Positions 24,071 to 50,424 of a stretch of 64,000 nucleotides of DNA are shown here, one piece after another. Position numbers and translations under genes: made by a program. The notes beneath the pieces are model-generated. The model searched no databases and had not been told where the DNA came from. It saw only the letters and a list, made by a program, of their open reading frames with translations. Every line of letters begins with the position of its first letter. The first letter of the stretch is position 1. The stretch is from Hydractinia symbiolongicarpus (Eukaryota; Cnidaria; Hydrozoa; Anthoathecata; Hydractiniidae), in NCBI RefSeq assembly GCF_029227915.1, contig NC_079876.1, positions 18,350,001 through 18,414,000 of the forward strand. Direction: 5' to 3'.

Positions 24071-24125
24071 ATGTTTTTGCAAGCGTTTTTGTGTGTGGCT
24101 GGAGTTCTGTTTCTTCCAAAAAGAG
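24071..24125 (+). CDS. RTK exon 1: signal peptide
   Basis: ATG followed by [18 protein letters not shown] and the donor GTATGT. It has the length and hydrophobic core of a secretory signal. It leaves one base (phase 1), which joins to AT at 29607 to make Asp. It is the only nearby exon that supplies both a start and a signal peptide in phase. cDNA would settle it. Confidence 0.65.
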
Positions 24126-27100
24126 GTATGTCGTTGTTGTTTTTAAATTTTTTAATTATTCCATTTTAGTGTGTAAATTTTAAATTTATTCTTATGATAA
24201 AGACCTCTGAGTTAATGAAAACAAAAAAATTTGAAAATTTTATTACTGCGGGACAGGGAAATAAATTTTAGTGTGTCTTAATATTTGTGAGTATAACGCT
24301 GTTTGAAGATTATCACGGGGGACATTTTAAAGAACCACAATTTCGGTAGTCAAGATATAATCTCGACGTGTAAAAGCATATTTCAATCAATTTCTGTTGT
24401 ACATCAAAAATCGTGCCTATTTTTACGCAACCATGTAAACATGCCAAATATCCGATGTTAGACTGATTTAGGCGCCAAGTGAAGGGTTGCTGAGTCCATA
24501 CGAGAGTATAAAATAAAGAATTGCGCAATTTTACTAATCTTTAACCTTACTCGGTCCGGTGATTTTCGGACATATTATGACCGGGGGGGGGGGGGGGGGG
24601 GCGGAATCCTCCCCCCACCCCTTAATGATTTTCCACAGACTTGTCCAAATTGAACCAAACTTAGCACACTTATAGTACTTCACAAAAGGAACAAAATAAC
24701 AGCAATAATTTTTGCTTGCGTCAGAACATTCTCTGTAACGTCATAAATAGCTTGAAATTTCTTTAAAATGCTACTATCTGCTTAAAATTCAATTACTTTA
24801 GTTATAGAGCGAATTTTTACATTCTGTTTAAAGATTCTGACAGCTAAGTAAATGTTACTTAACATATTTCCGATTTTTACACGAATTGCATTAAAAAGTG
24901 GCAAAAAATGCACGAAATTCCTTTTTCTCGATTTTCGGGTTAAACCCAAACAAATGGGGAAATCGGATTAATCATGCGTCCAATAGATGTGGAATGATTC
25001 TTCCTGATAAAAAAAGTGGTGTTGTAAGTTTCAAGTTCTAAGAACAATCCTAACAAGAGTTATTATATTGTTTTTATTATAAGGGTTTCATAGAGATTTT
25101 TAGGGGTACTTTCGAGTAATAGCCAATATGAAAGCCTGTGAAAGGTATAGGACATAAATAGTCCAGGAGCTCATAACAGAACTTTAGGTGCCATTTTCTT
25201 CAAAAGGTTTGACCCTCCAAATAGGTTGGTAGTATCATGGACAATAAAAATCACATGGTCAGCTGACCAAATTTGGGGGCGTTTGGGTCCCAGGCCCCTA
25301 AAATTAACCTAATTTGAGACTCCTATTTGGTCCCACAATTCTCAAAGCTTAAAAGTTCGTAACGTGTGTAATTATATGAGAGAATCTGAAAAATGATAAA
25401 GCTTACCGAAAAATTGGGTCTTAAGACTGGGTCAGACCCCTGCAAAGACCATATTAAGGACCTTAATGTGTCTCCAAAAGCTACAAACTCCAACCTTTGC
25501 ACAAAAATTCTCGGAATTAATAGTGGAATGTCATTGGTCATAAAACTGACCAAAAATTTGGGTCTCTTGACCTAGTCAGACCGCGTCTCTACCCATATCC
25601 CTATTTTAAACAGCTTTTAGAGGGTGAAGAAAATCAGTGACTACAAAGCCCAAACTCAGTATTTGTGTTCTATACTAACTATGTAATACATAAATGGTCG
25701 AGCTTACCAAAAAATGCGGTCCTATCAGCAGGTCAGACAAAGATCTGAACAGAAACTCAAATTGGACCTCATAAGGTACAAAGACTATTCCTTTGTTGTA
25801 AGACTATTCCTCATCATTCAGGATTAGACATAGAGCCGTACAGATAAAAACCTAAGAAGTTAACAAGAATAATGCTTCCACTAGATGACAAGAGAGGAGT
25901 ACAGAACCAATCTCATATATCAAAGCACGCATGTACGATACCTTGTGAATGATGGGTTTTATTTTCCACCCGACACTGCACCAACGTAGGTTGGCTGAAA
26001 TTCTATAATTTTTCCAAATACCAACAATATGCAAAAGAGTTTGGTACCTGCCACAAATTAATCAGTTCCCAACTTCTATAGCTGTAGTAGCAGAATCATT
26101 GAGACGTGCACAGGTGATTGCAAATAAATGTTGTAAGAAAAACATTTCGTAACATACGATCTTGCAATTGCCAAAGTGGCTATGGAACTTCAAGCAGAAG
26201 AATCTCAAACTACTAGAAAAAAAAAAGAAAGTGTACAAATTGTATTTAAACAGCTAGGAACAAATCTTGATGTCACAGATGACGCTTTTGCAACGTTGGG
26301 AAAACTTGTAGAAAAAGGAATATATCATCTGTATGTAAAGCTAGATTGGTAATGTTCTTGGAAAAGTACAAACCATGAGGAGAAAATGAAGCAATTCCAT
26401 GTGATAAGAAGTTTGATGGAAGTTCTCTGCCACCTTGTTTATGAGTGTTGCGTCAAAAGATTTATCGCACAAAGTATGTTGCACAGTTATGGATGTCATC
26501 AATAACAACGGAGCCTCCAAATCACCTTTCTGAAGACACAGGTTGGCTCCTGAAAGATAAAAGCTATAACACACTTGGTTTTCTTTCGCTTTCCCAGTAG
26601 TAGCTAACGTTCTCTGGATAAAAGTTCAATCAGTTTTTTACTTCGATTACTAAACTTCGCTTCATACCAAAGAAAACAAATGGAAAATGTATAGCTAGCT
26701 ACAATTGGCTGATATATTTCATCGTCGTACGTTTTTCTTCTTTATAACATATATTTCTGACAACAAAATAAACTTTTTGTACTCGCTCGACAACAAAAGC
26801 CGCTCTACAACAACATTTTTGTTTTTTACATTTCAGATTCAAATTACATTCATATTCAAATCCGATAGAATTTTTATGAAAGGAAGCAACCTCGGTCCCA
26901 GAACACAAAAATGGAAAATATAGAAAAACAAAAATAAGCTTTAAATTAACCTTATGATGAGTAAACATTGTTTGAAATAACTTTTTCCAGGATTACTTTG
27001 AAAAACAGACAACCTTCTTTGATTCGGTTTTCTTTTTTCAGTCGATAAACAACTTGTTTCCCTTAGATACGGCGTGCACATTAATCCGGGGGTAAAATCA

Positions 27101-30100
27101 AATTATTCTATCTATAACGACCAACAGGACTTTTAAAACAAAAAATAAACAAATAGAAACATTTAGAAATAAAAATAAAAATTTATTGTTAATATAATAA
27201 AAAAATGAGTTTTATTTTTTAAAATAACGAAAAAAAAGAATTAAAAGTTTAAATAGTAACCCCCTGATTTGCGTTTTTTTAACTTGGTAAATTTTAGCGT
27301 AACGCCATCTCGTAACTTTGCGTGTCGTGGACTCACATGGTTACTCACACAAGCGTATTATTATATAGATAGCACTTCAGGCATATGGCCTCACATCAAT
27401 AAATGAAAGCGCCATTTTTAAAGAAATAAATTTACCGTAACTTTTGTTTAATTACAAAGACCAGGGTCAAAGTTACATATCGCATTTCTTTTATTTCGTG
27501 AAAGACGTTCCTTTGGATAATACAAATTACTAAGCGATGTTCAATGAATACAGGTACAGATAGGTAGTTAATACAGATACACCATGCCACTTGCTTATCT
27601 AGTGCATCGCTTAGTACAGGTATTTAGGCCTATCATATATCCATAGAGCGCCCTTATCAAAAACATAACCTTCGTTTAACTTTGACTCACCATACCTTTA
27701 TCGAACAGACACGACAATTTCCATGTTCTAAATTTTAATTGTGGATATAAAAAGAGTTAAAGTATTTCATAGGTAGCTAGCTGCATTTAAACATTAAAAA
27801 TTGTATGAAAAATTTGCCTGCCTTTTCACTAACACATCATGCCTGGCAGATTGCTAAAGCTATACATACTAGAATAAAACAATTGTGGAAAAAAATATAA
27901 TTATAGGCATAATATAATTAACTAAAAATATCATGCAAAGAGTTTCCTCCCCATTATGGATACGTGTTTATGTAGCCAAAATCTTTTCAAAATTAGTTTT
28001 TTTAAGAATTGAAACTACAAACAACTTGAGACAATGGAATTTTCTTGGGCATTTTTCGGAGTTAGCAAAGATAATAAGCTCGCCTATACTTTTCAGCCGA
28101 TATGTTGCTACTTCAGCATATTTGAGGACCGCTAAGCAGCGTTTAAAATGGTCTAGTCGCATTTCATAGCATGAAGAAATTACGGAATGAACCACGTAAG
28201 GTTCCACGAAGTGTCGAAATATGGTAAAAACTACCCATGCTGACCTCAGCAACAAGTAGCACAGGTTAAGAGTTTGGATTTAACCAAATAACCGAAATGC
28301 TAAGTCGTCCGCTGTAAAGATTGGCAAGTTCAAATTGTGTTAGCGTGATATAGAAACAGCCGAAATAACCACTTCTGGCAACAGAATTCAAACCTTGCAG
28401 TCATGCACCAACATTTTTCCCACTAATTGTAGCTAACTATTAAGAAAAAGTAATTTTATTAACCTGTAGAAACGAATAATAGAAACAAATTTCTGAATAC
28501 AAACTTATTAGCAAAGACAGAGACATTTTCGAGATGCATGAGCGTAGCTACTGTTTGTTTAAAAAAATCTGGCTTTGCGATTGATTTAGTAAACTTGTGG
28601 AAAAGTGATAGACGATGTGCAGTGCCGAAATTTTAGTACCCGTGGCGTGCTGACGTGTTCGAAAAACATCTGACGAAGATGGTTAAAAAGCATCGCGTAT
28701 ACATGATTGAATGAGATAATAACTATTCGAGATAATAACTATTCGGTCCCCCTATGTATGTTTTGATTGAGAAAAGCTAATGACTTCAAATTTTGTAGGG
28801 AGATAGTATTTAATAAGTAGAATCTATTTTATTAAAAGAAATCACGATGACGTCATCATTTTTAAGATGGCGTCATCAGAAATCCCCAAAATTGGACTTT
28901 TTGATGTAATCAAATGACGAAATTCATTTTAGTAGTTACTGCTTTATTTTTCACATTTTTTTAAACAATTCATAAACATTTTTTTGGCGATGTCACGCAT
29001 ATTATAACGTCATTGTCTTCGTTCAGAAGAACGGAATTTCCCTTTACAGCAAATCAACATAAGTTGATAAAAAGATAATTATTTGACAGTTTATTATTTC
29101 TCTTTTATTTCTTTCATCTATTATTTCTATTTTATTTTTATATCAACTATTTGGTTTTTTCCATGATGACATATGACAATAGATTAGTGAATGAGTGAAA
29201 ATGAGTAAATGTCATATTTGTGTATGTCTTTTCTATTCTCTATTTAAAAACAATAGTAAAAGTATTGAAACTAAGTTATTTTAGTCAAAATAGAAATATA
29301 TATTTTTGGGGGGATTTTGACACCTTTAATAAATTGAACGAATGAGGAAGGTGAGGTTCAAAAAAAATTGCGGCAAAGTATTGCTAAATAAATTTTAAGA
29401 AAAGTCAGAAAATTTCAGGGTCATATCACAATTTATAACAAGTTATGCAAAAAAAAAAACTCGTAGGTGGGGACCATTTGGTTCCCCTGGTTGGAATACG
29501 GTTAAACTAATATGTCACTCTGTATTTAATATTTATTCTGATAATTAATGGCTGATATACTTTGCTCCATTTAATATTAATCATAGTTCATTACTGTTTC
29601 ACGTAGATTGTACCAAATGTAATGTGCAAAAGAAGTATGATTCCACCATGAAGAGCAATTTCACCCTAATTGATGTTAACGATCTTACAATCGCCAACCA
29701 CACATATTGGCTTTTTAATATCGAACGTATTTATGGCATTCCAATATTGAAGAAATGTTTCCAATACATTGACAATGGTCTCTTTGTAAGTCATTTTTTA
29801 AAAATTAAATTTATAGGAAGATAGAAAAAACAGTAAGTAGATTTAACGTCATCTAAGCATGCTTTAATTTGTTCATATATTCACCACAAAACGAAGGAAA
29901 TAATTTGTTGGTATGATATTGCAGCCGCTATTATGGCTTTTGAAAATCGGTTTAATGAAGGACTGTCACCAGGGCCATTGGATATTTTGAGGTGATGGAA
30001 GTAGTAAGCATGCGAAATTAACCTGTTGCACCAGCGATCTTTTAGTGGGAATAGCACTGAAAATATTGGAATATTCTCTCTCATAAAGTCATGTGAAATA

Positions 30101-33100
30101 ATTCTTCGCTTTTTTAAATGAGACTTGGATCATTCTTGCTTGTTTTTGGTATTAGATGGTATTTTTATCGATTTTTGGAGGGTAATTCTTGTTAGTTTTT
30201 GGTATTAAGTGGGCTTTTTTTAACGATGTTTGCAAGAGAGTTCATGTTAAATTTTGGTGTTAAGTGGTATTTTAACGATATTTAAATGGGTATTTTTGTT
30301 ACGTTTTGGTAATTAGTGGTATCTTGAACAATATTTAGATGAGAATTCTTGTTTGTTCGCGGTACTAAGTGGTTATTTTAACGATATTTAGATGGGAATT
30401 TTTGGTTTGGGATACTATCAAACAACAACATACCATCTCATTATACATGCTATCGAGTACAACAAAACATGCAACCGGACTTCTCCACACAATACAAGAG
30501 ATGATGAATTCACGGCCGACGAAACCACTATCGTCACATACAGTATCACAGCATCCGGTTTTGTTAATGCTGATAAATTCCAACTTGTTTTTGTATCAAA
30601 TGAAAGCATCACATACGTCAAGTCAACAGCATGTAATGTTGGATACAGTATTATAACAGGATTTAGACCATTTTTAGTAGCTGTTGGTTACTACAAGTAT
30701 TGTTTATTTTATATCCATTGCCGTAGTGACGGAGCAATTGCCAAGATAGAACACAACCTTTGCACAAGGAGGCCAGGTAATAATCATTTGTCAAGTTTTT
30801 TTATGCTCAAGAAAAGAATTTAAAGATTTAACAAAACAATTATGTTTTAGTTATCTACCCACCATCATCTGAGAAAATCTACATACAAGAAAATATAAGA
30901 ATACTGCAAAAACCTTTTTTGTTTTTCTCCAGTTTCACAAATTACGTCATGGTAAGTCATTTACTTTTTTATCTGTAAAAATTTTTCTTGATATTACTTT
31001 ATGCTAACTGGCAGCAAGGACACACGGAAAAACAATTTGCAAACTTTGTACGATGGGCGAAGCACTGTGGAATTTTCCACAGGAGACAGTATTATTAATA
31101 CTCGTTCTCTGCTTGATTACACCAAAAAAAAGGTTTTACATATATATTTATATTAATATACCATAAATGTAATCAGAGACTTCCGAATATATGATTGAGT
31201 GAATTTTGACATTTTTAACCGTGGCACTCACTTCTTTAATATACCTACCAAAACAATGTATAAAAAAAGAATGCAATACCATCAGTATTGCATTCTTTTT
31301 TTATACATTGTTTATCATTAGTATCCATCTTGAACGTCTTCGTCCTACAAAGTAAAACCATACAATTTCTACATCAAAAGTACACATCCTTTTGATTAAT
31401 ATATGTATCTGATCCATGATGTGGTTGCTTTTCGTGTTTTGTATCTCCAGAGTGCTTTTTGATTGAGGTACAAATAATGATAGGGTTACAATTATTATTA
31501 AGCATTTACTGGGTGCCATAATTTAGAAGCGGTGGTATCCCTGATAAATAAAATTCAAACTACAAAAAATAACTTCAAAAAATACTACATATTTTTTCAA
31601 TCATTGTCATTAAATAACGTAGATATTATCATGTCATGAACAAGCACGTTTGCTTTTAGGCTACAGCTACAATGACAACAGTTGTAGCTGTCGAAAGGTT
31701 GCCTAAAGTAAGTTAGCTTTAGGTGTGGCAAAACTAAAGTTTAACAAAAGTTTTTTCGAAATCTAAGTGTCGTGTTTCTTTTGTTTTTGCATTGCGCATA
31801 AAGATATAGGTTTGATTAATTCTAGACAACACATGCGAGAGGTTTCATGCCATATAAAGAAAAACTTTAAAATTGCAGAGAAGAAAAACAAATCATTTTC
31901 TCCCTACTCTAGCATTGGAAACCTCAAAATAGCCCAGCACGAACAGAGTTAAAATCACGAAGCTATCGAGTTTTTCCTTGTGTTTTGAAAATTTGAAAAT
32001 ATCTTTATTTCTAAAATTTGACAAATTACTAATTTTGCTTCTACTAAAATTACTGAATCCTCAGTACCCACAAAATTATTTCCAGGATTTCCGGAAAAAA
32101 GTGCAAAATAAACGATATCGGTTCCTCTCTTCCACCAAAATAAGTTTCAAGGTAGATTTTTCTTCAAGTTACTTGTTTAATTAAGCTACTGGGTATTAAG
32201 TTATTTGAAAGTATCCGTTTTTTCTAGAGAGCAATGACAGGTGCATATTATATGAACTATAGACCTTAAAAAAGTTGTAGGATTCTCGCGAATGGTTATG
32301 CTTTGGCCTGATGGCGAATGGCTTTGCCTTGGCCGGATCGTTTTAACTTTCCTTACTTCACCAAAGCTAAATGCATCTACCAGCTAGAGCATGCACTATT
32401 TACGTGTGTTTATTCTACGTGCGAAGTAAAACAAATCGTTGAAATAATTTCCATAAGAGTCTTAGAAGTGCTCCTAACCACCAGAAAACGTGTTAGACAA
32501 GCGCCTACAATTATTACGATGTTTTATTTAGATAAGTCGCAATGGAGTCCTGTCACTTTCATCGGTTCATAATGGCTACACAAGCATACCAAACAAAGAC
32601 ACTGTATTTGTAATGAATAACAACAGTAAATCAAATTTTCTAAAACTAACACGTTTGGAATATCAAACAAGTCCCCTATTTTTAAGCGTTGCCGGTAATG
32701 ACATATCTAAAATTACTCAAAGTCCATTCAACGCTACACAGCTTCTAATCTTTACCAGTTATTATGATGACGAACTCACAAACCAGGCAATCTTCGCTAC
32801 AGACAACAACTCAACGTACGAGATATTAAACTACCGAAGATTTGATGATTACAGTGTGATTGGCTATTCAGAGCGCTCTTGTGGAAGTAAAATTCTGTTT
32901 GGAAATAACTCAAGTCAAATGGTGCACACATCAAATGTAGGAGTACCAGGTCGACATGTGTTTCGACTGACCCAAAAATGCAGAGTTGCAGGTAATGTAA
33001 CATCTGTTGTAATTTCGGTCTTTGTAAATTGACATGTGTCAACAAAATAGATTTTTTAGCTTGTTATTACCAGATCGATACAAAAAACCGTTTCTAAGAA

Positions 33101-39100: not shown

Positions 39101-42100
39101 AAGGTGTTCGGCTCTTTCTAATCAATTATGTAAGACTACCCGGTATCCAGTGGATAAATTCACGGTTTGCCCGTCCTTTACATATCACATTTCGTGTTTT
39201 CGTATCACATTTCGTGTTTTCGACCTTTTTCGCGCAGATATAAACAGACAACGGCTATTATTGAAAAGACTTTTAATACTAACAATAATAATCTTATTGT
39301 ACATTTAAACCAGATATTTGTCGGTGTCAGTGCCAGAATCTTTACTTTCCTTGTATTCGCCAGACTAAAACTTAATTATCGACAACATGATCAAATTTAG
39401 AAACTGCGGAAAGTTTATGGAAGAATGTCATTATCATTGCGTCAACTTGTGGCAGTGTTCTTCTGCTTGTTTTCCTCGCCATGGTGTCCTATCACAGAAA
39501 GAAAATGAAAAAAAGAAATAAATTTCTGTTTACCCAAACAGCTTACAAGGTATGCGGTTAATAACTTTACTTTATGTGCGAAAATCTAATTTTAGACAAT
39601 ATTGACCGAAATATTGTAATTTTAGTCATTCATGACTTCAAAGCATGTGTGGTCTGGCAACTTGTAAATCCTTCCTTTCTTTTAATGTTCTCCTAGTTGG
39701 ATCCTGATCGAAGCATTCTTGAACAATGCAATGACTTGACCTACGATACAAAGTTTGAATTTCCAAGAAAACGCATCTCGTTGTTTCGAGTACTGGGCGA
39801 AGGCGCGTTTGCGCAAGTGTGGATGGCTTCAGCTAAACAAATGGAGCACTTTAAACCCAGGCAAACTAAGAACAAGGCTGGTCTGTGGGAAAGATACGGA
39901 GCAAAGAAAAAAACCTTTGTTGCAGTCAAGACACTTAAAGGTAATTGGAGATAATTTTTGTATCTGTCTTTTCTAATCGCGCGTAACTGACTTTTCAAAG
40001 TTCAAATATCTTAACATACTTTAACATTCCCAGATATCTCCGAATCAGTGATCTGCATCGTTCGATATAACAATACCTGTTCCTGAAATCTTTTATCAAT
40101 TGAATTCATTCATCTAATACAAATTGCTGCCTTAATAAGTAGATTTGCAGCTCTGTTATTAGAGCAAACGTACGGCAAACAAGATGTCGCGGGTTCAATT
40201 GCCTAACTATCTGTTATCTTTGAGCTGCATTTGTTCTCCCAAACAAAACAAAACTAAAGAAATTATTCCGATGTTTCTTTTCTCTAATGTTGGCATGATT
40301 CCACACCACCTGCAACAAAAAAATTTCAGAGAATGGCTATAACTAAATAAATAATAAAAAAAAACAGTTTTGCTTATATATACTTAAAAACTTCCATCAC
40401 TTACCCACTTATTAATCACAACAGCTAATCCAAATTTATTTGCTTTGACTTTAGGAACATTGAGCTCTTTATAATCAGCCCAAAGAGGCCACCGTAGTGA
40501 AGTAGTGCTTAGTGAAGTAGTGCTCAAAATTCATCAGAAATGGTTTTAAGAAATGACTCTATAAAATACATGTTTTTTATAAGGTCAGCTTTAAGTATAA
40601 GAACTTCAGCTCTAAGTGAATCTGTTTTTCACGCCATCTCCGGCCGGTTTTTTCTTTAGTAACTCTTCTATGCTACATCATACTTAATAAGTTTTTGTAT
40701 TTTTCTATAAAACACCTTTATGCCAGATTTTCAGGTCCAATAGGTTCTTTATGTATTAGCCATTACTTGAAACTACGTCTTAAATTATTAGAAAATCTAA
40801 TAACTTTTGTTCAGATAGAGACTAACTCGTTTGTCAAGAATTTAATTTCGTAATTTAAAGAGGCAATTGTTTTTTCTCGCATCAGTTTCTGACGTTAAAG
40901 AAACAAAGTGCAGAAAATATTTAAAAAATATTCGTGACTTGTTGACACGAAATCATAAGTAGCTGACTAACTTTTAAGATACGCTCCCTTTAAAATTCAA
41001 ATGGGTTTTACTTTGCAACAAGTCTTCTAATTTATCCTTACTGTTTTTAAATGTGATCTTCCAGATTTTACCTTTTAATTTTTTCTTTTTAGCTGGTGCC
41101 ACAGAATCAGATTATAAGGATCTAGCAAACGAGCTTAAACTTTTAATACACCTCGGAGAACATCGAAACATTGTCAATCTGCTTGGTGCATGCACTCGCG
41201 GTGAGAATTTGTTGGTGATTCTTGAATATTGTTCAAATGGAGCTGTGTTGAATTACCTACGATTAAATCGTTATGATTTTGAAGCTTCTTGGCACAAACA
41301 GAACAACGAGATCTTCAATCTTTATCAAATAACTTGGATAGCGGTTCAAATTGCTGATGGGATGAACTTCTTGGGAGAGAAAAAAGTAACACACATTTTG
41401 TTGGTTTTGTGTGTGTGGGTTTTCGTATTTCTGGCCGGTACTGTTTACGCTTTTGAGCTGTAAAAAAATTTTCGCTCGAGTAATTCTCAATAAAAAGCTC
41501 GGTGTCATCTCCTTAATGTAGATTGCAGAAGTTTTTCCCAGAGTATATTTCTGTTGTTCGTCGAAACGACATGATGTAAAGAGAGTTTATATTCTAACTC
41601 ACAGGCTCAGACGAAAATAACTTTATATATCTACTAATTCTCTTTGTATAGTAAGATCAGTCTAGCAATAGTAAGGTCAATCTAGCAAGATGTGTAAACC
41701 AGGATGTCAAAAAATACAACAGTGAATTATGTTCTTTAACGATAAATTACTAACGCAATTAAATTATACCGTTTAAAAGAAAAGTGAGGTACCTGTGTTA
41801 TTTTGGGGATTGTAATGTTAAAGAATTGTTACAAGAATTTGGAATGTATCGACTTTTTCACCTTGTAAGGGTGGGCGGGTGGGACCCAAGTTGCTATCGA
41901 CGTGTAAGGATTTCTTGCGTTACTTCTCATTTAAAAGCTATGTCACGTGATAATTATTGCATAATTATCGGCAACACAGAACAACTCGTAATCGTAAATA
42001 AATTTATTTTGTCAGTGCATTTTCCTCTTTTGTTTGGCATATTTTTATGTTTTAATTTCTAGTGTGTACACCGCGATTTAGCAGCAAGAAATGTTCTTTT

Positions 42101-45100
42101 GACAGAGAAAATGTACGCAAAGATCGCTGATTTTGGCCTTTCAAGAAACACTGGTGGGAAAGGCTATTACCATAAAGAAACGGAAGGAAATCTTCCTCTG
42201 AAATGGATGGCCCCGGAAGCTATAACGCATCAAAAGTACACCACCAAAAGTGATGTGTAAGATACTTTGTTTCTTGACTATGTGCTTGAATTTTTACAAT
42301 CATAGTAAGTGTAAGTGAAGTGGAATGGACGGACGGACGGACGGACTCACCAGCATTATAAGGATTCACGTCGCCGCTTTTTTAATTTTTTAGTTGGTCG
42401 TTCGGCATTTTGCTATGGGAAATTTACTCACTCGGGTCCACACCTTACCCAGGTGTTAAAAATAATGAAATGTTAAAATACGTAAGGAGAGGAACAAGAA
42501 TGGCAAAACCAACGCATTGTAAAGAACAAATATATCAGCTAATGTTGCAATGTTGGTCAGGACCGCCCGAACTGAGACCTTCGTTCATTGATTTGCGCAA
42601 CAATATCGATCAAGTTTTGGTTAATAATGTAGGTATTGATTATTTTATAAGTTATCCTTACTAGTACCAAAAGAAAAATAATCGATTAAGTCAACAATGA
42701 AACGATTTTAGAATCTTAAGAATTAGAGAAGCTAGTCATATTTTTCACTCCTTATTTGCGCTGACCTTTACATTAATTATATTCTGTGGAGACAATTTTG
42801 GTACTTGGCACGTGCTACAGATAAGAATTCGTCTTACATATATTTGCACACGTCTAGAATAATTTTTTAATTAGGTATTGGTACATCTTGAAAAGTCCTT
42901 TTATCTGTGAAATTGAAGTCTCTACATTTTCTACTATGCGCACCAAATCGGTCCAGCTATGCGTGGACAAACGCTATAGCCGGTAGATGACACAACAATA
43001 AGCTGAAGCGTGTGATAACGTTCAAAAGATTTCTTGTCAATTCTTTTACTTACTGCACAGGAACAAGGTTTCTACAGTGGGCAGTCGTTGGCGAATGTTT
43101 ACAAAATAACTTCATCGAAATCTTCGGAATCAAAAGGGTAAGACACTGTTTTGAATTTTCCGCAAACATTGAAACAATACCATTAGAAAAGGATTTAAGT
43201 GCAAAACATCGAACTAAACTCCCCCTAATTCGATCAAATTCACTGTCAAAAAAAATTAATTCGATCTAGATATAAGGAAAAATTCTCTCTTTAATATGAT
43301 TTTCATGAGTGTAAAAAGGCCCTAACCACAGTTTGAACCATATTTCAAGTTTCGAATTTCCGTTCATTCGAATGTTTTGAAATTGAAATTCCCTTCTGTA
43401 TTTCGATTTTTTCCACTTTGCCGCCTAAAAATTCGAATTAGAGAGAATCGATTGTATCCTTAAATTCCCTTGTATTTCAATATATATATATCGCATCATA
43501 TTTCATCTTATATATTAACTCCCTTGCGTGAGTAAAACTGTGAGTCCACGACACGGAAATCACGGGTCACTTTCTTATGACGTGGCGTTACGCTAAAATT
43601 TACCAATTTAAAAAAACCCGCAAAACAGGGGGTTACTATTTAAACATCTTTTCTTATTACTTTAAAAAATAAAACTCTTTTTATTATCTTACAAAAACTG
43701 ATTTTTAATTTATTTTTAAATGTTTTTATATGTTTTTTTGTTTTAAAAGCCCCCTTGGTCGTTATAAATAGAATAATTTAATTCTACCGGTTTACAATGT
43801 GGGCGCCGTATCTAACGGAAACAAGTTGTTTATTAACTGAAAAAGGCAACCGAAGCGAAGAAGGTTGTCTTGTTTTTAAAGTAATCCTGAAAAAAGTTAT
43901 TTCAAACAATGTTTACTCATCAGAAGGCTAGCTTAAACCTCATTTTTGTGTTCTGGGACCGAGGTTGCTTCCTTTTATAAAAAATCTATCGAATTCGAAT
44001 ATGAATGTAATTCGAATCTAAAATGTAAAAGAAGAAACTGTTGTTGTCGAACGAAGTTGGTGTTGTTAGTTAGAAATACTTTTTTTTTAAAAATAAAAAA
44101 TGTACGATGATATAACATCACAAAGAGAATACTCCTTTTTATAAATTATTGCGCAATATCCAGCCTCATCTTGAAACTGAGACACTCGTTGTGAATTTTC
44201 CTCACATTTTTTCCGCTTTGAGGCGGGGGATTTTATAATAACAACTAATCATCAGTATTATAGAGATAATCATTCTCAATAATAAGTTTCGCTAATTAAT
44301 AATCAAGTTCCGGAACAAAAAGAATTATCTCCATTATTTTTTGCTGCGTTTCAGTGATAAACATTAGAAATAAACATTCGTTGGCAAGAAGGTGTCTAAG
44401 AAGGTTTATCTGGTATTCACAAAACAAACTACAGCTATTTTTTCAAACTAAAATCATCAAAAACTGCTATTTTAATAGCAACAATACATCACACGAGGCT
44501 CACGCTTCGAAGTACTTTATTATATATGTTTTATACAACAAAAATGGACAAGGAAGATCAACATGAAATTGAACTGGAGGTTGAAGATTTTCAAGAGTTC
44601 TTTAATGATATCTCAGTAGGTAAGTGATAGCAGATAGATACATGGACCTTCAAAAAGTTAGACAGGAAAAACACAAAAATTATTATTCACTATACATTTG
44701 CTAAAAATTCTTTTATAATTGCATTAAGACAGACATATTTTCTTATATTTTCAGATCCAGCCAGCATTATTCTAACCGAGGATGATATATCTGACCCTCA
44801 TGTCAAAATTGATATTGAAAAGCTGCCAAAGTACAAAGTCGAACACCTGAAAAGCTGGCTAATATTTCGTGGCGATACATTACATGGGATTGACACACTC
44901 AAGGATGCACAAGTACGAGTTTTGCACTATATTGAAAGTAAAACCAGCAGTAGGATTGTAGATCCAACTCCAGAAAAAGTTTGGCTTAGGATAAAAGCAG
45001 AAAATGGGGATATTACTAAAACCTTTGTGGAAAGAAGGAACTATGCCAGCTGTGCCTGTTGAACTGAAGGCAGATATATTAAATCCATTAGACTTAACAG

Positions 45101-48100
45101 GATGGTCAAAATCGTTGACAGAAATGCCCAGCTTCACTGTAGAAAATATAAACATTTACAATAAAAAAGTCAACGAAACATATTGTAAAAATTCTACTGC
45201 AATAAAAAAACATTTCATACGTGGTGATCAATTTATTGAAGAAAATTTTCTTGATTCGACCAACATATATGCGAAACACAGTGACTCATTATTTTTTTTG
45301 AAAAGTGTGGCAGCTGCTAGTTTAAAGAAAGCAAACAGATGGGTATTTTTAGCTTTAAACAAAATTACAAGTGAAATTTGACATGAAATGGAACATGCTC
45401 CCATGCTTATCCTCTCATGAAAACTTTAGCTAAATGGGTGGTAGATAGACTATCAATGATTCCCGATGCAAAAGTTTGTACCTCGAAGCCTTGTGTTTGG
45501 AATGTACCACAGTCTAGAGACAAAATTGAGAAAATACCTGTGATGAAATTGACAATAAAGTCACCTAATGCAAAAAAAATTAAAATGGAGAAAAATAATG
45601 ATACTAACTGTACACCAAAAGAAAAAAAAGGAATTGTTTCGTCCTTATACGAGTCACGTGTTTCTTCACATACTGCTGATGAGGATTTGACGTTCCTATT
45701 ATCGCACATGAAAAATACAAAAACCAACATTTGTGCCACAAAACTGATTAACCTAAATCCTGTTCACTTTAAACAAACTCAGTTTGGAAATGTACCATCA
45801 GGTTCATTGCTAAGCTACCAATGCCCTATGATGCCTCCTGATTTTAAAGTTTATTGTTCTATTCCTAATTCATCATCAGTATGTCAAGATGGTTTTAGTT
45901 TTCAACAATATCCACCGTTTCCATTTCAGCAAGTACAAAATAATATTGACGAATATATACAAAGAATTCACATTGTTGAAATAAAAAAAATGCAAAAGCT
46001 CGAAACTATGAAGGGTCATGCAAACAATATTGAAAAAATCGAATCAAGTACAAAAAACCAAGCTGATGATCCAAACTGGTTTACGTATCGTAAAAATAGA
46101 TTCACCGCCTCGTTATGCAACAAACTTGGAAAAACTGCACCAAAAACAGAAAGAGGGTCAAAAACTTTAGCTCGTAATATTGTAGCTGGTGATCCAGCAA
46201 AGCTCAATAAGATTGTAAAAATGAAAATGGCGTATGGGCGGTTTTATGAACCAATAGCAATTCAACATTATGAAAGATACACGACACTTCAAGACTTCAA
46301 TATAACGGTTGAACAATGTGGCTTGGTCATTGACAGAGTTAATTACGTGTTAGGTGCTACACCTGATGGCAAAGTAACCTGTGATGGTTCATTTGGCATA
46401 TTAGAAGTAAAGTGTAGCGAACAGTATAAGAATATTGATCCCAAGACAATTTGTCACATATCACCCAATCCCTGTGTTGTTCTTGATGAAGATAGTGGTT
46501 TAATCAATATTAACAAAAAGCGTTCATACTATCGGCAGGTGCAAATGCAGTTGGCTATCACTTGTCGTACTTGGTGTGATTTTGTATTTTGCACATCGAT
46601 AGAGTTTTGTTTGATGAGAAATTTTGGGAACAATTGCAGAAAAATATTCTAGATTTCTATTTCAAGTACATGCTTCCAGAAATTGTTGAATATGACAAAG
46701 ATTGAGTTAGAATCAAGACACAATATGTCATGTATATACTATATGTGAACAATATATATTTTATATTACTTTTTTATTTAATTATATAGCGTTGTGAAAA
46801 GCATTTAGAAAGCTAAAGTTTCTTTTTTTAAAGTTATTCTCTCTCCAGGGTCTAACAGTCACATTGTTAATATATAAACAATAAAGTTTGTATCTTATTT
46901 TAAAATAGGCTGTTAAAAGTTAGTCAACATTGCACAAACTGATATTATTTGATTCAGTGACCCTGGCATATTTACTGGAATCACTCTATCAAAAATATGA
47001 AAACACTTTAGTCTTTGGATCATACGTTCGACATGAATTCTTTCTGCGGCTATTTGTTGACTACGAACAACTTCACTATTCACTTCAATAAGAAACTTTC
47101 TAATGGTGATAAAGTACGAGGTCTACCTCTTGATGAATCCCCCTTGATTTGTTGGTTGTTATATAATACAATGTTCTCGCCATTCTCACCAGCATTTAAA
47201 AATATTAATATTCCCCGGAAAATATCAACCGATGGCAAACCAGTGTAGTGATTGCATCCTTGATCTGATAACAGCACTTGTTCAACAAATTTACATTTAA
47301 CTGTACTTGTATTTGCTTTCAAGGTCTTATTTTCTTCTATTAACATAGAAATTTGCTTTTGTAAATCTGCTGATTTTTCTGTTTGAGTAAAAGAATCTAT
47401 GGTAAAAAAATTATCTTCAAATACATCCATTTCAGGTTCAGGTTGTGCAATTTCTGACACCGAATTTCTGATTTTTTTTCGTGGAGATGGTCGGTCAACT
47501 GGTGGCCTTCTCCTACTCAAATCATCTTTTACCATTGTCTCCAAAAGTACAGGTCTTGCACCCTTCTTTAGACGTCTCAAAGTACCGCCGGGAGGTCGAA
47601 TAATGTCCGTTTTAGAAAAGTGTTTTTCACACAGAACAGTGTGGTTAGTTACACGAAAGTTGTCCTTTCCATCAACACGTTTAATTCTACTACACCACAC
47701 TTTTCTCTCACCAACATCTTTTGGAAACGTGAAAAAACTTGTTGCTGTTAAAATACGTTCACCTTCAAACTCTACTAAACCAGTATTGTCACAACCCCAG
47801 GCTGCACATTGCTTTCCAAGACTTTATGTTCTTTGTTTACGTTTTTTTGACACACTATCCGCCATTGCGATTTTTATTGTGAAGAAAGTACACAACGGCT
47901 ACCTCGTTTTCGTGTTAACGCGATTACGTCATCGCGAATTTATGAAAAGGAGTATTGATTGAAAATGTATCAAATAATTGTAATCCAATTTATGAAGCGA
48001 AGTTTAGTAGTCGAAGTAAAAAACTGATTGAACTTTCATCAAGACAACACTAGCAAGCTACCTACTGAGAAAGCGGAAGGAAAGCAGGTGTGTTGTTTAG

Positions 48101-50424
48101 ATTATTTAGGAGAGAATTGAATTTGGGTGTATAACGATATTTTTGCCGTTTCTTTCAGACCTAAATTTTTCCTTAAATATTAAGTTTGTTGTTGTGTCTT
48201 GCGCCGGAAAATATTTTCTTGAAACCCTTATTTTGCAAGATATACTCTGAAAAATGGGTGAGAAGTTCAGAATATCCTAGGACTATGTGTAAGCTTGATA
48301 GTTTGTTTTAAATATGAACAATTGTATGACCCACAAAATTAATTAGAAGTTTACTTTTTTATTGTATATCAAACGAACTGAACTTTTTTGTGTCCAAGCA
48401 ATAGGCCGTTATATGTAGTAGAAATTGCCATTAGCTAGCTATAATAATTATAGCATGCTTTATTTTATTAAGGCATTATATATTTTCAGGTCATAGCCAT
48501 GCTAAGAACATATTGAGAATAATGAGGATAGCATTTGTCAAAAAAGTTAAGAACATCAGGCTGAAACTAAAACGCACTATTCTTATAAACAGAGTGTGTC
48601 TATCCTAGAGAAGAATTTACATAAACTGTAAAAAGTAATATTTCCGTTGTTACTGTTTTTAACACTACAGACTGCGTAATTCAGTGTTAATGTCGTTATG
48701 AAAAACCTAAACCTAAAACCTAAACTTAACTCAATGTTTACATCTGTTACATTGCCGTTTGAAATATATTCGATTCTTAAATTCGAAAACGCTGCATTGT
48801 TATCTCCTTTGATATTATGCGTGATTATCTTGATTATAAGTTTGGGTCTGTCCTTTTAATATTTTGGATTAAAATATTTCGGTAGATAAACAATATACCA
48901 AATGATTCAAGTTTTTATATTTCTCTTTTACGTGTTTTTAACTATTAATTTCTTATATTTTAAGTATAACTTTTGACTGAATAGCTGATTTTGTATGACT
49001 TTACGAAAAATGTTTGATTTCTTATTAATGTTTGGTATTCCTTTTTCCCTGGTGTACTTCTGGAATGGCAAAACAAGTATATAGTTTTAGTGTATTTCGC
49101 TTTTTACGTAACGGTTGTTAGACACCTTTGATATTTTTGGACATTTTCCATTTTTATTTTAAAATTTTTTTTTGTTGCACATGCTTATATTTTTAGACGT
49201 TTTGTTTCAGCGGTTCTAAACATAGAATAAGGCATATTGTGAGCAACCTCGATCCCAGGGCTTTTTTCTCTTTTTGCCATCCCGTTATAAAAGAGACAGA
49301 GAGCCAGGGTTCGAGGATGAAATGTGCGTTTTGAAAATTAAAATTATTGTGATTTATGTTTTTGTTTGGTATTCCTTACATCGGTTTAATGAGTGATTCA
49401 ATGGATTTTTCACGGGAATTCAGATAACTGTTAATTTCTTATATTTTGTGTAAAACTTTGAAAGGGTTGCTGTATGCAATAGACTGAATATTTGATTTTG
49501 GTATGACGTGTTACAAACTTTACAGTGTGGAAATTTTGTAAAAACTTTTTTTGTATAACTTGGCAAAATATGATAGACTTTTTAAATGTCTGATATACTT
49601 TTTTCCCTGGTCTACTTACGGCATGGCAAAGCAAGTATAAATTTTAGTAGATTTCGCTTTTTTGAGACGGTTGTTAGACGCCTTTGATTTTGTTGGACAT
49701 GTTGCCTTTTTTGTTGTTGTTGTTGTACCTGCTTATATTTTCAACGTTTTAGTTTCAACGGGTAGAAATATAAAGTAATGCAGACTGTGAGCAACCTCGA
49801 TCCCAGGGCTTTTTCTCTCTCTTTTCTGTTCCGTTATAAAAAGAGACAAAGAGCCGAGGTTGGGTTATAAGTTTTAAAAATTAAAATTACCATATGTTGT
49901 ATGTTTTTGTTTGGTATCCCTTACATCGGTTTAATGAGAGATTCAGTGGATTCTCCCACGGGTACTCAGCTAGTATTCTATTTTTTGTTTTAACCTACAT
50001 GTCTTGTTTTCCATGCGAAGTTGCTTACGCGACGTTTAATATTAAAATCTAACTCAAAATTAAACAAAATTCAATATTTTTTAGTGAAAAACTTGCTGTT
50101 TATGATGAAGTTGGACAAAACGATGAAAAGGCCTATAATGAAACCTACAACATCGACGGCTATCTCACATTGGAAGAAAATGGCTTTCAAGAGGAAAACG
50201 AAGAAGGAGCAGATGAAGATAATTTGGGATTTCAGGGAGATTATGTTGTAGAAAAAAGCAAGAGAAGTTACACCATTCATGATAGTTATATCAGCTTGGC
50301 AAAAATTGACGAAAGTCCTGACGGGAATAAACATGTTGAAACACCAGAAGGAAACAAGGAAATAGGAGATGCGCTTCAAAGCAGAAATGGAGACGAAGAA
50401 AGTTTAAATGATATAGATATATGA
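24071..50424 (+). CDS. Receptor tyrosine kinase with two NIDO-like and two FN3-like domains (17 exons)
   Basis: A single-pass receptor kinase of the plasma membrane. Exons: 24071-24125, 29607-29785, 30392-30776, 30851-30951, 31019-31132, 32532-32991, 36111-36232, 36777-37284, 37515-37784, 38316-38594, 39401-39549, 39697-39940, 41093-41385, 42063-42256, 42394-42628, 43061-43137, 50085-50424. All have AG/GT borders and matching phases; the total is 4005 nt (1334 aa). Order: signal peptide 1-18; unrecognised Cys-containing region to 240; NIDO-like 241-431 and 432-641; FN3-like 642-731 and 732-824; membrane helix about 832-855; kinase about 905-1200; tail. Kinase motifs [23 protein letters not shown] and WMAPEA are all present, so it should be active. 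The ligand is unknown. Exon 1 is the least certain link, 5.5 kb upstream but in phase. Confidence 0.88.
24583..24601 (+). repeat. Poly-G run (19 G)
   Basis: Nineteen G in a row in an AT-rich intron, followed by a C-rich stretch (CCTCCCCCCACCCC) that could pair with it. Confidence 0.95.
25250..25745 (+). repeat. Degenerate tandem repeat, period about 148 bp
   Basis: Blocks shaped like GGTC...CTGACC/CTTACC-AAAAATT-GGGTC...GGTCAGACC recur near 25253, 25400, 25545 and 25695, with the text between also loosely alike. The period is close to a nucleosome core length. It lies in intron 1 of the receptor gene. Confidence 0.6.
26160..26580 (+). pseudogene. Decayed transposon-type ORF
   Basis: Starts with an open stretch from an ATG at 26180 ([20 protein letters not shown] ... 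[18 protein letters not shown]). Changing frame near 26350 it continues [22 protein letters not shown] and [19 protein letters not shown], with TGA stops inside. The PPC...KI.RT.YVA.LW pattern recalls a repeated gene type in cnidarian genomes that I cannot name. It lies in intron 1 of the receptor gene. Confidence 0.4.
26575..27369 (-). mobile_element. Helitron copy 3, 3' end missing
   Basis: Same family as 52666-54666. The 5' end TC (27369-27368 on -) is preceded by A, followed by TATATAATAATACGC and TGTGAGTCCACGACACGC. Similarity runs to about 26575, where it stops without a hairpin-CTAG terminus. Confidence 0.65.
28730..29500. other. Intron sequence, no gene
   Basis: Part of intron 1. Shows a 21-bp doublet (GAGATAATAACTATTCG at 28710-28747) and paired TGACGTCATC / TGGCGTCATC motifs near 28850-28880, otherwise AT-rich text. 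No coding signal. Confidence 0.5.
29607..30951 (+). CDS. RTK exons 2-4: N-terminal extracellular region
   Basis: Exons 29607-29785, 30392-30776 and 30851-30951. The mature N-terminus begins [19 protein letters not shown]. Exon 3 has five Cys, including [16 protein letters not shown] and [13 protein letters not shown], plus several N-glycosylation sites (NKTC, NESI, NRTS). I do not recognise a domain. Exon 3's acceptor (ATTTAG) lies in the last unit of a 53-bp minisatellite, so similar decoy acceptors precede it. Confidence 0.75.
30133..30410 (+). repeat. Minisatellite, about 53-bp units
   Basis: Units start near 30133, 30186, 30241, 30294, 30346 and 30399, each with a TTGTT..TTTTGGTATTAAGTGG..TTTTAACGATATTTA core. 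The last unit runs straight into RTK exon 3, and its ATTTAG supplies the acceptor. Confidence 0.75.
31019..37284 (+). CDS. RTK exons 5-8: two NIDO-like domains
   Basis: Each domain uses a short exon and a long exon split at the same point, phase 0 then phase 1: 31019-31132 with 32532-32991, and 36111-36232 with 36777-37284. Both long exons start at AG followed by ATAAG. Domain 2 is the clearer: [61 protein letters not shown] and GHTNSG. Domain 1 has [51 protein letters not shown] and [14 protein letters not shown]. These follow the NIDO pattern (LYPxG start, FQxxxxTD, NxGxPG end). The repeated exon split points to an internal duplication. Confidence 0.72.
31251..31313. repeat. Perfect 29-bp inverted repeat, 5-nt loop
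   Basis: 31251-31279 and 31285-31313 pair without mismatch around the loop CATCA. It lies in RTK intron 5, 118 bp past the donor. It would form a strong RNA hairpin. Confidence 0.95.
31654..31708. repeat. Compound inverted repeat
   Basis: Inner stem ACAGCTACAA (31663-31672) pairs with 31682-31691; outer stem CTTTAGGC (31654-31661) pairs with 31701-31708. A further CTTTAGG copy follows at 31717. RTK intron 5. Confidence 0.7.
33241..33374 (+). mobile_element. Mini-Helitron (134 bp)
   Basis: Starts TCTATATTATAATACCC after an A and ends CTAG before a T. The 3' hairpin GTGGATTCTTCCAC lies 10 bp before CTAG. TC at the 5' end, a hairpin then CTRR at the 3' end, and insertion between A and T are the Helitron rules. 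It has no coding capacity and sits in RTK intron 6. Confidence 0.85.
37515..38594 (+). CDS. RTK exons 9-10: two FN3-like domains
   Basis: Exons 37515-37784 and 38316-38594, each about 90 codons and each flanked by phase-1 introns, as is classic for shuffled FN3 modules. The first has [13 protein letters not shown] with the core Trp, and [18 protein letters not shown]. The second has [14 protein letters not shown] and [17 protein letters not shown]. Similarity is weak in detail, so FN3 is the best fit rather than a certain call. Confidence 0.6.
37995..38140 (+). mobile_element. tRNA-derived SINE, degraded copy
   Basis: Has an A box (TAGCCTTGTG), then GCATTCGCTTGCAGTGCGG. The B box is deleted. 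Next comes GCATGAGAATGGATTTGATA and CTTAGGCGGTTGACTAGTTG, and it ends in AATAATAATAG. Clear homology to the copy at 51730-52028. Intron 9 of the receptor gene. Confidence 0.75.
38826..39250 (-). mobile_element. Possible decayed Helitron pieces
   Basis: On - a hairpin CCGATTTATCGG abuts CTAG and T at 38830. Near 39148 a degenerate match to the mini-Helitron 3' end occurs (CCAGTGGATAAATTCACGG). A 20-bp exact tandem pair lies at 39183-39222. Boundaries cannot be fixed. Confidence 0.3.
39401..39549 (+). CDS. RTK exon 11: transmembrane segment
   Basis: Encodes a helix [20 protein letters not shown] followed by the stop-transfer run [10 protein letters not shown]. This places exons 1-10 outside the cell and exons 12-17 inside. 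Confidence 0.9.
39697..42628 (+). CDS. RTK exons 12-15: tyrosine kinase domain
   Basis: Exons 39697-39940, 41093-41385, 42063-42256 and 42394-42628. Seen in order: GEGAFAQVW (glycine loop), FVAVKTLK (Lys, residue about 952), [20 protein letters not shown] (helix-C Glu), [12 protein letters not shown] (Asp about 1058), ADFGLSRN (about 1076), [20 protein letters not shown] (paired activation-loop Tyr), [17 protein letters not shown] and [16 protein letters not shown] is the receptor-type tyrosine kinase form. Closest in style to the FGFR/VEGFR/Ret group, with a short kinase insert. All catalytic residues are present. Confidence 0.95.
40140..40225 (+). mobile_element. tRNA-like SINE relic
   Basis: GCAGCTCTGTTATTAGAGC followed 30 bp on by GCGGGTTCAATTGCC, matching the A-box/B-box layout of a tRNA head. 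The stems are too degraded for a working tRNA. RTK intron 12. Confidence 0.4.
42327..42346 (+). repeat. (GGAC)5 microsatellite
   Basis: Five exact GGAC units in RTK intron 14, about 50 bp before exon 15. Confidence 0.95.
43061..50424 (+). CDS. RTK exons 16-17: cytoplasmic tail
   Basis: Exon 16 (43061-43137) has 25 codons, [20 protein letters not shown] onward, and ends in phase 2. Exon 17 (50085-50424) opens in phase 2 and runs to TGA. The tail is acidic with tyrosines in docking-type settings: FYSG, VYKI, VYDEV, AYNETYN, GYLTL, SYISL. YxxL-type motifs can bind SH2 adaptors or phosphatases when phosphorylated. The 6.9-kb intron between them contains a Helitron with a nested DNA transposon. 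Confidence 0.85.
44131..44147 (+). repeat. Left terminal inverted repeat (ISL2EU-like)
   Basis: ACTCCTTTTTATAAATT; matches the reverse complement of 47937-47953 at 16 of 17 positions. Confidence 0.85.
44544..46705 (+). pseudogene. SAP/YqaJ nuclease of the ISL2EU-like element
   Basis: Accessory nuclease of the element. Exon 1 is 44544-44619 ([19 protein letters not shown]); the intron has GTAAG and TTTTCAG; exon 2 starts at 44755 in matching phase. A SAP-like motif follows ([20 protein letters not shown]). The frame shifts near 45020, stops at 45379-45381, and resumes from 45417. The YqaJ/lambda-exonuclease core is complete: [44 protein letters not shown] (the ExK pair) and [13 protein letters not shown] last shift near 46600 is needed to reach [14 protein letters not shown] and the TGA at 46705. 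Broken, but the catalytic residues survive. Confidence 0.82.
46913..47865 (-). pseudogene. THAP-DDE transposase, internally deleted
   Basis: From the ATG at 47865 ([13 protein letters not shown]) an in-frame TAA follows. Then comes a THAP zinc finger: [24 protein letters not shown] and [21 protein letters not shown] coiled coil follows ([17 protein letters not shown]). The frame then jumps, after [10 protein letters not shown], to the end of a DDE_Tnp_4 domain: [20 protein letters not shown], with the catalytic Glu, then [20 protein letters not shown] and TAA at 46913. The two Asp-bearing segments of the DDE domain are missing, so a deletion removed the catalytic centre. Confidence 0.85.
47937..47953 (-). 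repeat. Right terminal inverted repeat (ISL2EU-like)
   Basis: On - reads ACTCCTTTTCATAAATT. The flanking ATTGATTG continues the Helitron sequence. Confidence 0.85.

Follow-up and report, generated by a model that had tools for sequence, protein, structure and literature searches.

A family of Hydractinia receptor tyrosine kinases with NIDO modules in the ectodomain

LOC130629817 of Hydractinia symbiolongicarpus, which RefSeq names an "uncharacterized protein", encodes a receptor tyrosine kinase (RTK) that has NIDO modules in its ectodomain. We are nearly certain of the order of its parts: a hydrophobic leader, a degenerate NIDO, two further NIDO modules, two FN3 domains, a membrane helix, an FGFR/VEGFR-type kinase, and a tyrosine-rich tail. 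Receptors of this type (NIDO-RTKs) are apparently an undescribed class of RTK, and the family is apparently limited to one lineage. We think it fairly probable that LOC130629817 is a single-pass RTK of this separate class, with an exon-shuffled ectodomain and an adhesive or matrix-sensing role.

We rebuilt the exon chain from the raw sequence of a 64-kb stretch of genomic DNA (the window). The receptor gene occupies 24071-50424 on the forward strand and has 16 exons (3,891 nt, or 1,296 amino acids plus the stop codon), which replace the 17 exons and 4005 nt that an earlier note on this DNA had claimed. All internal exon borders are AG..GT, and the exons join in phase. Residues 1-1,184 are identical to P0001, which is isoform X2 of LOC130629817 in RefSeq (1,190 amino acids) and has the same start codon. 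A 48-nt exon at 31660-31707 was dropped; it would split the core of NIDO1, and it is not in isoform X2. Elsewhere in the window, a search with eight proteins found no second copy of the gene (tblastn, E <= 1e-3). Upstream, at 172-2359, lies a reverse transcriptase (RVT_1) read over two overlapping frames, which is a decayed or frameshifted retroelement. Intron 1 contains a run of 19 G at 24583-24601.

Could the gene model have fused the gene for a NIDO protein to a kinase gene? The span does hold large introns and a transposon-like insert, but we consider this artefact very improbable. The exon phases are consistent, and the combination recurs in the RefSeq model, in an intronless 4.1-kb contig, and in eight other proteins with both NIDO and a tyrosine kinase. 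So the NIDO-NIDO-FN3-FN3-TM-kinase receptor that the earlier note proposed is real and not two joined genes. The contig (P0002; 4,135 nt) has a 1,269-aa frame with its parts in the same order as in LOC130629817, including the tail from exon 16, and is 83% identical to LOC130629817 over the ectodomain query. Because LOC130629817 spans 26 kb, P0002 is best read as a transcript, either of a related gene or of an allele.

The exon structure of the ectodomain is regular. Exon 1 (24071-24125) carries the start codon and an 18-residue hydrophobic leader, and it ends in phase 1. Each NIDO module is then a two-exon unit with phases 1-0-1: exons 2 and 3 (29607-29785 and 30392-30776) encode the two parts of the degenerate NIDO (N0, residues 19-206), exons 4 and 5 (30851-30951 and 32532-32991) encode NIDO1 (residues 207-393), and exons 6 and 7 (36111-36232 and 36777-37284) encode NIDO2 (residues 394-603). 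Each FN3 is a single 1-1 exon: exon 8 (37515-37784) for FN3a (residues 604-693) and exon 9 (38316-38594) for FN3b (residues 694-786). Phase-1 module exons are the pattern expected of shuffled modules, so the ectodomain looks exon-shuffled. Exon 10 (39401-39549) encodes the membrane helix and the juxtamembrane region. As had been proposed, there is one membrane helix: the Kyte-Doolittle profile of the whole protein peaks at 2.6 at residue 797, where the helix approximately begins. (A weaker hydrophobic stretch, 1.85 at residue 499, lies within NIDO2.) The leader is hydrophobic but stays under our hydropathy threshold of 1.7, which the leaders of P0003 and P0012 exceed.

The earlier note had suggested a search against Pfam NIDO (PF06119), and this bears out the NIDO assignment. 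NIDO2 scores 64.9 bits (E = 1.3e-17) and the whole protein scores 70.2 bits, with a cut-off of 25; NIDO1 by itself is at 24.6 bits. With a strict family NIDO profile (see below), NIDO1 and NIDO2 score 102 and 178 bits. Among solved structures, no relative of NIDO was found by sequence (there was one chance-level match, E = 1.3), and no NIDO match could be read from the fold-comparison lists, which are occupied by FN3 and kinase chains. For the two FN3-like domains, the fold stands by fold comparison, but Pfam fn3 (PF00041) does not reach its cut-off of 25 on the FN3a-FN3b segment (14.1 bits, E = 0.057), nor does it in three relatives (17.2, 17.8, and 13.0 bits). FN3a, where the pLDDT of the model is about 51-72, was matched solely within the FN3a-FN3b tandem. 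The structure model of the full receptor is poor (mean pLDDT 50.7, pTM 0.32), and its kinase part, built with 9 sequences, is unreliable, with Foldseek matches at an rmsd of about 22. A Pfam scan found no Ig domain in the LOC130629817 product or in the other eight NIDO-kinase members, and no EGF module in the LOC130629817 product.

The N-terminal 220 residues were previously said to match nothing. We found instead that residues 19-206 are a diverged NIDO. N0 by itself has no match in Pfam. As a guard against profile drift, we made the strict NIDO profile from 21 strong copies in P0010-P0015 only, and as controls we took 16 segments and scored each one reversed and in 20 shuffled versions. N0 of LOC130629817 scores 12.7 bits, and the best shuffled or reversed control scores 7.9. 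N0-like segments of relatives score up to 31.0 bits (P0013), with 26.1 for P0002, 23.8 for the second copy in P0003, 20.9 for P0014, 13.9 for the first copy in P0003, and 13.1 for the first copy in P0011. (P0010 and P0011 each have a second N0-like segment; at 5.8 and 4.5 bits, these do no better than shuffles.) When five N0 copies were compared to the family NIDO profile with hhalign, the probability was 94.5% (E = 7.7e-8, 68 columns), while the controls (FN3, juxtamembrane, and ten column-shuffled profiles) reached at most 1.3%. Also, the introns within N0, NIDO1, and NIDO2 share column 88 of an alignment that was blind to introns. Taken together, the scores of the relatives, the hhalign result, and the intron position indicate that N0 is a third, degenerate NIDO module, which is new here.

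Exons 11-14 (39697-39940, 41093-41385, 42063-42256, and 42394-42628) encode the tyrosine kinase (residues about 855-1158). It is a full kinase, as the earlier note had it (PK_Tyr_Ser-Thr, E = 1.8e-88). Lys914, HRD, DFG, and APE are all present, so catalysis would be expected. In the glycine loop (GEGAFAQV), the third glycine is an alanine in LOC130629817 but a glycine in P0002 and P0003, and this alanine may lower the kinase activity. In the top 60 of 2,434 solved sequences, FGFR1-3 and VEGFR2 are the relatives whose match covers the whole domain, and one EGFR-labelled chain, matched in two stretches (residues 42-292), ranks first. NCBIfam gave only matches below the cut-offs, mostly to bacterial kinases, and a search of a phage collection matched the kinase part only weakly, which has no bearing here. 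Two relatives depart from the catalytic pattern: P0011 (LOC130628517) and P0010 have HRDLAART/HRDLGART and DLG instead of HRDLAARN and DFG and sit on a long branch in the kinase tree. From these motifs, both are probably pseudokinase receptors, whose activity may be weak or absent.

The C-terminal tail begins in exon 15 (43061-43137), which is present in P0001 and P0002. Exon 16 (50085-50424) encodes the tyrosine-rich part and the stop codon; P0002 matches this tail, and exon 16 is not in isoform X2. From residue 1159 on, the tail has nine tyrosines, including those in YDEV, YNET, YLTL, and YISL, which we take to be possible docking sites for SH2/PTB proteins. The end of isoform X2 (...GFRLCNF*) fits an alternative terminal coding stretch at 47436-47457 (forward strand), with its last six residues readable at 47437-47454 behind a splice-like AG. 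This ending would give a receptor without the tyrosine-rich tail. It lies within a transposon-like insert in intron 15 (45387-47823) that also contains a YqaJ-exonuclease ORF (45387-46649, forward strand) and a THAP-domain ORF (47083-47823, reverse strand).

LOC130629817 is one of at least seven NIDO-kinase loci. Using residues 590-1140 of P0002 as the query, we scored 7,973 proteins, of which 4,644 reached E <= 1e-20. NIDO and a tyrosine kinase occur together in nine clusters among the 120 matches listed. Seven of these are loci of H. symbiolongicarpus (LOC130629817, LOC130646248, LOC130628517, LOC130630320, LOC130625556, LOC130625370, and LOC130654766), and the others are P0002 and P0010. 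By Pfam, every one of the nine members has between two and six NIDO copies, and with the family profile the module count goes up to six. None of the NIDO-kinase proteins among the 120 matches listed names another genus (seven of the nine carry H. symbiolongicarpus names). Among the same matches, the proteins that bear names from stony corals, Hydra, Clytia, Podocoryna, Nematostella, and Rhopilema have Ig domains instead, and there is also an Eph receptor from Paramuricea (P0055). P0006-P0009 and others, which have neither NIDO nor Ig, are placed above the Ig RTKs when scores are summed, but the score of P0006 is inflated by its six kinase stretches, and P0006-P0009 are 31-38% identical to the query, whereas the first cnidarian Ig RTKs reach 44-47%. 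A search with the ectodomain returned just three proteins (two named Hydractinia and one further), and an ectodomain profile returned only P0001, P0002, and two shark SNED1 proteins. These searches can only reach proteins that share five-residue words with the query, and they are limited by length and to the best 120 matches, so absence beyond Hydractinia is likely but unproven.

A kinase tree with 29 rows has a 100/100 branch that separates the nine NIDO kinases from 18 Ig RTKs. Thirty-five rows were chosen from 122 proteins, and the 29 used were 9 NIDO, 18 labelled Ig, and 2 unlabelled vertebrate VEGFRs; P0020, P0028, P0055, P0070, P0075, and P0101 were left out (matched span of at least 450 residues). 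The row for P0003 is half-length (the listed isoform ends inside the kinase). As the tree includes best hits only and its root is for drawing, it leaves the class unplaced among all RTKs. The claim that no described class of kinase receptor carries NIDO is consistent with these proteins and with the literature we searched. In searches for NIDO with RTK, for Hydractinia RTKs, and for two of the locus names (mostly in open papers), we found no description of a NIDO-bearing tyrosine kinase receptor. The accessible part of PMC8662651 does not mention "nido", and that of PMC8260672 names NIDO only as an extracellular domain.

The number of modules differs between family members. P0003, a paralog of LOC130629817, and P0011 each have six modules in the same order, and five of the six P0003 modules best match the P0011 module at the equal position (the third is closer to the sixth). 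The modules of LOC130629817 match modules 1 (61%), 2 (58%), and 6 (79%) of P0003, so three consecutive central modules may have been lost from LOC130629817. Alternatively, its relatives might have gained modules. We searched intron 5 (32992-36110) for remains of the three missing modules with five module queries, and no match was below E = 0.048. At the start of the last, membrane-proximal NIDO, six of the nine members (P0010-P0015) have RGDN, which is possibly an integrin-type contact. LOC130629817 and its two closest relatives, P0002 and P0003, have KGDN instead, and there is no RGD in the LOC130629817 receptor.

What might such a receptor do? An adhesive or matrix-sensing function seems most likely. 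The ectodomain would have been put together by exon shuffling, with phase-1 modules (three NIDO and two FN3) placed above an FGFR/VEGFR-type kinase. We infer that the membrane-distal NIDO array would bind an extracellular protein, most likely a component of the matrix or the surface coat or another NIDO protein, with the two FN3 units serving as a stalk. Clustering of the receptor on its ligand would lead to trans-phosphorylation, and the tail tyrosines would recruit SH2/PTB adaptors. Paralogs with two to six NIDO modules would then make up a set of adhesive-signalling receptors that differ in reach or specificity. A TECTA paper gives matrix assembly as the predicted role of NIDO (PMC4016231). 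Adhesion by SNED1 is reported to run through RGD-binding integrins (PMC11828466), but this parallel is loose because the LOC130629817 receptor has no RGD. Other observations also count against our preferred explanation: the alanine in the glycine loop, the FN3 scores below the Pfam cut-off, the weak leader by hydropathy, and divergence that is not concentrated at the distal end.

This last point also bears on another proposal, that these are cell-cell or self/non-self (allorecognition- or immune-like) receptors in which the NIDO array of one cell would bind to variable ligands, or to another NIDO array, on the cell next to it. A multi-gene family that is apparently lineage-limited, with variable module number and module gain or loss (such as the correspondence of LOC130629817 to modules 1, 2, and 6 of P0003), is what this proposal would lead one to expect. 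Between P0001 and P0002, N0 is the least conserved part (135/173 identical), as the proposal would also have it. But FN3b (76/93) is about as diverged as NIDO1 (154/188), so divergence extends past the distal end; NIDO2 (195/209) and the kinase (286/303) are the best kept. This comparison does not pick out the ligand-distal part. Between P0010 and P0011, the second N0-like module is the least conserved (144/178), and here the kinase (277/304) is less conserved than NIDO1 (181/192) and FN3 (174/185). Also, the seven H. symbiolongicarpus loci are spread over contigs of five different lengths and do not form one complex. Overall, we view a recognition role as unlikely. A more conventional proposal is a relative of cnidarian FGFR/VEGFR in which NIDO replaced Ig and the ligand is still a soluble growth factor. 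The nearest full-domain solved kinases are of this type (among the best 60 of 2,434), the matches listed include Ig RTKs of cnidarians close behind the family, and FN3 stalks occur in cytokine receptors and Tie2 too. Yet no Ig domain is left in any of the nine members, and the proteins in which NIDO is known are of matrix and mucin type (PMC11828466), so we view an ordinary growth-factor receptor as unlikely.

Hydractinia is an animal in which colony growth and allorecognition are studied. A bolder proposal is that the NIDO-RTKs are an undescribed, hydractiniid-only class, in which an array of two to six NIDO modules is the ligand-binding part of an FGFR/VEGFR-type kinase and cells read the matrix or the surfaces of neighbouring colonies by NIDO-NIDO contact. 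We hold this to be possible but doubtful. If it were true, then tyrosine phosphorylation upon NIDO contact would be a direct surface read-out. More broadly, within one genus, phase-1 exon modules seem to have been shuffled, multiplied, and lost to give a new receptor class. A 2025 paper states that the function of the NIDO domain is unknown (PMC11828466); arrays of NIDO coupled to a kinase read-out would offer a direct route to finding what NIDO binds.

How do NIDO-RTKs compare to known proteins? The earlier note had named nidogen, mucin-4, and sushi-type matrix proteins as those from which NIDO is known. Mucin-4 is a membrane mucin, so the matrix label does not suit it, and to our knowledge neither it nor nidogen-1, nidogen-2, or alpha-tectorin is a kinase. 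The occurrence itself stands: nidogen-1 and -2, alpha-tectorin, and mucin-4 contain NIDO, and SNED1 (sushi, nidogen and EGF-like domain protein 1) is described as a protein of the matrix that contains EGF and sushi modules (both PMC11828466). The shark SNED1 proteins (P0004 and P0005) share the NIDO start YPFG..GD...DD and the YRET core with NIDO-RTKs and have FN3 too; their listed domains do not include a kinase. In contrast to nidogen and SNED1, the NIDO-RTK has no EGF match but does have a membrane helix and a kinase, so it is not a secreted matrix protein.

The kinase is closest to that of the FGFR/VEGFR/PDGFR class (full-domain solved matches, best 60 of 2,434). RTKs of this type from Hydractinia (P0023), Hydra (P0035), and Nematostella (P0033) match 62-64% of the FN3-to-kinase query from P0002, with identities of 45-47%. 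These RTKs carry Ig domains, whereas NIDO-RTKs carry NIDO and FN3, and their kinases part at 100/100. The Hydra receptor Sweet tooth is a C-type lectin RTK, with a lectin ectodomain. Sweet tooth and the venus kinase receptors are, like NIDO-RTKs, invertebrate RTKs with a non-canonical ectodomain, but the venus kinase receptors join a Venus flytrap ectodomain to an insulin-receptor-like kinase.
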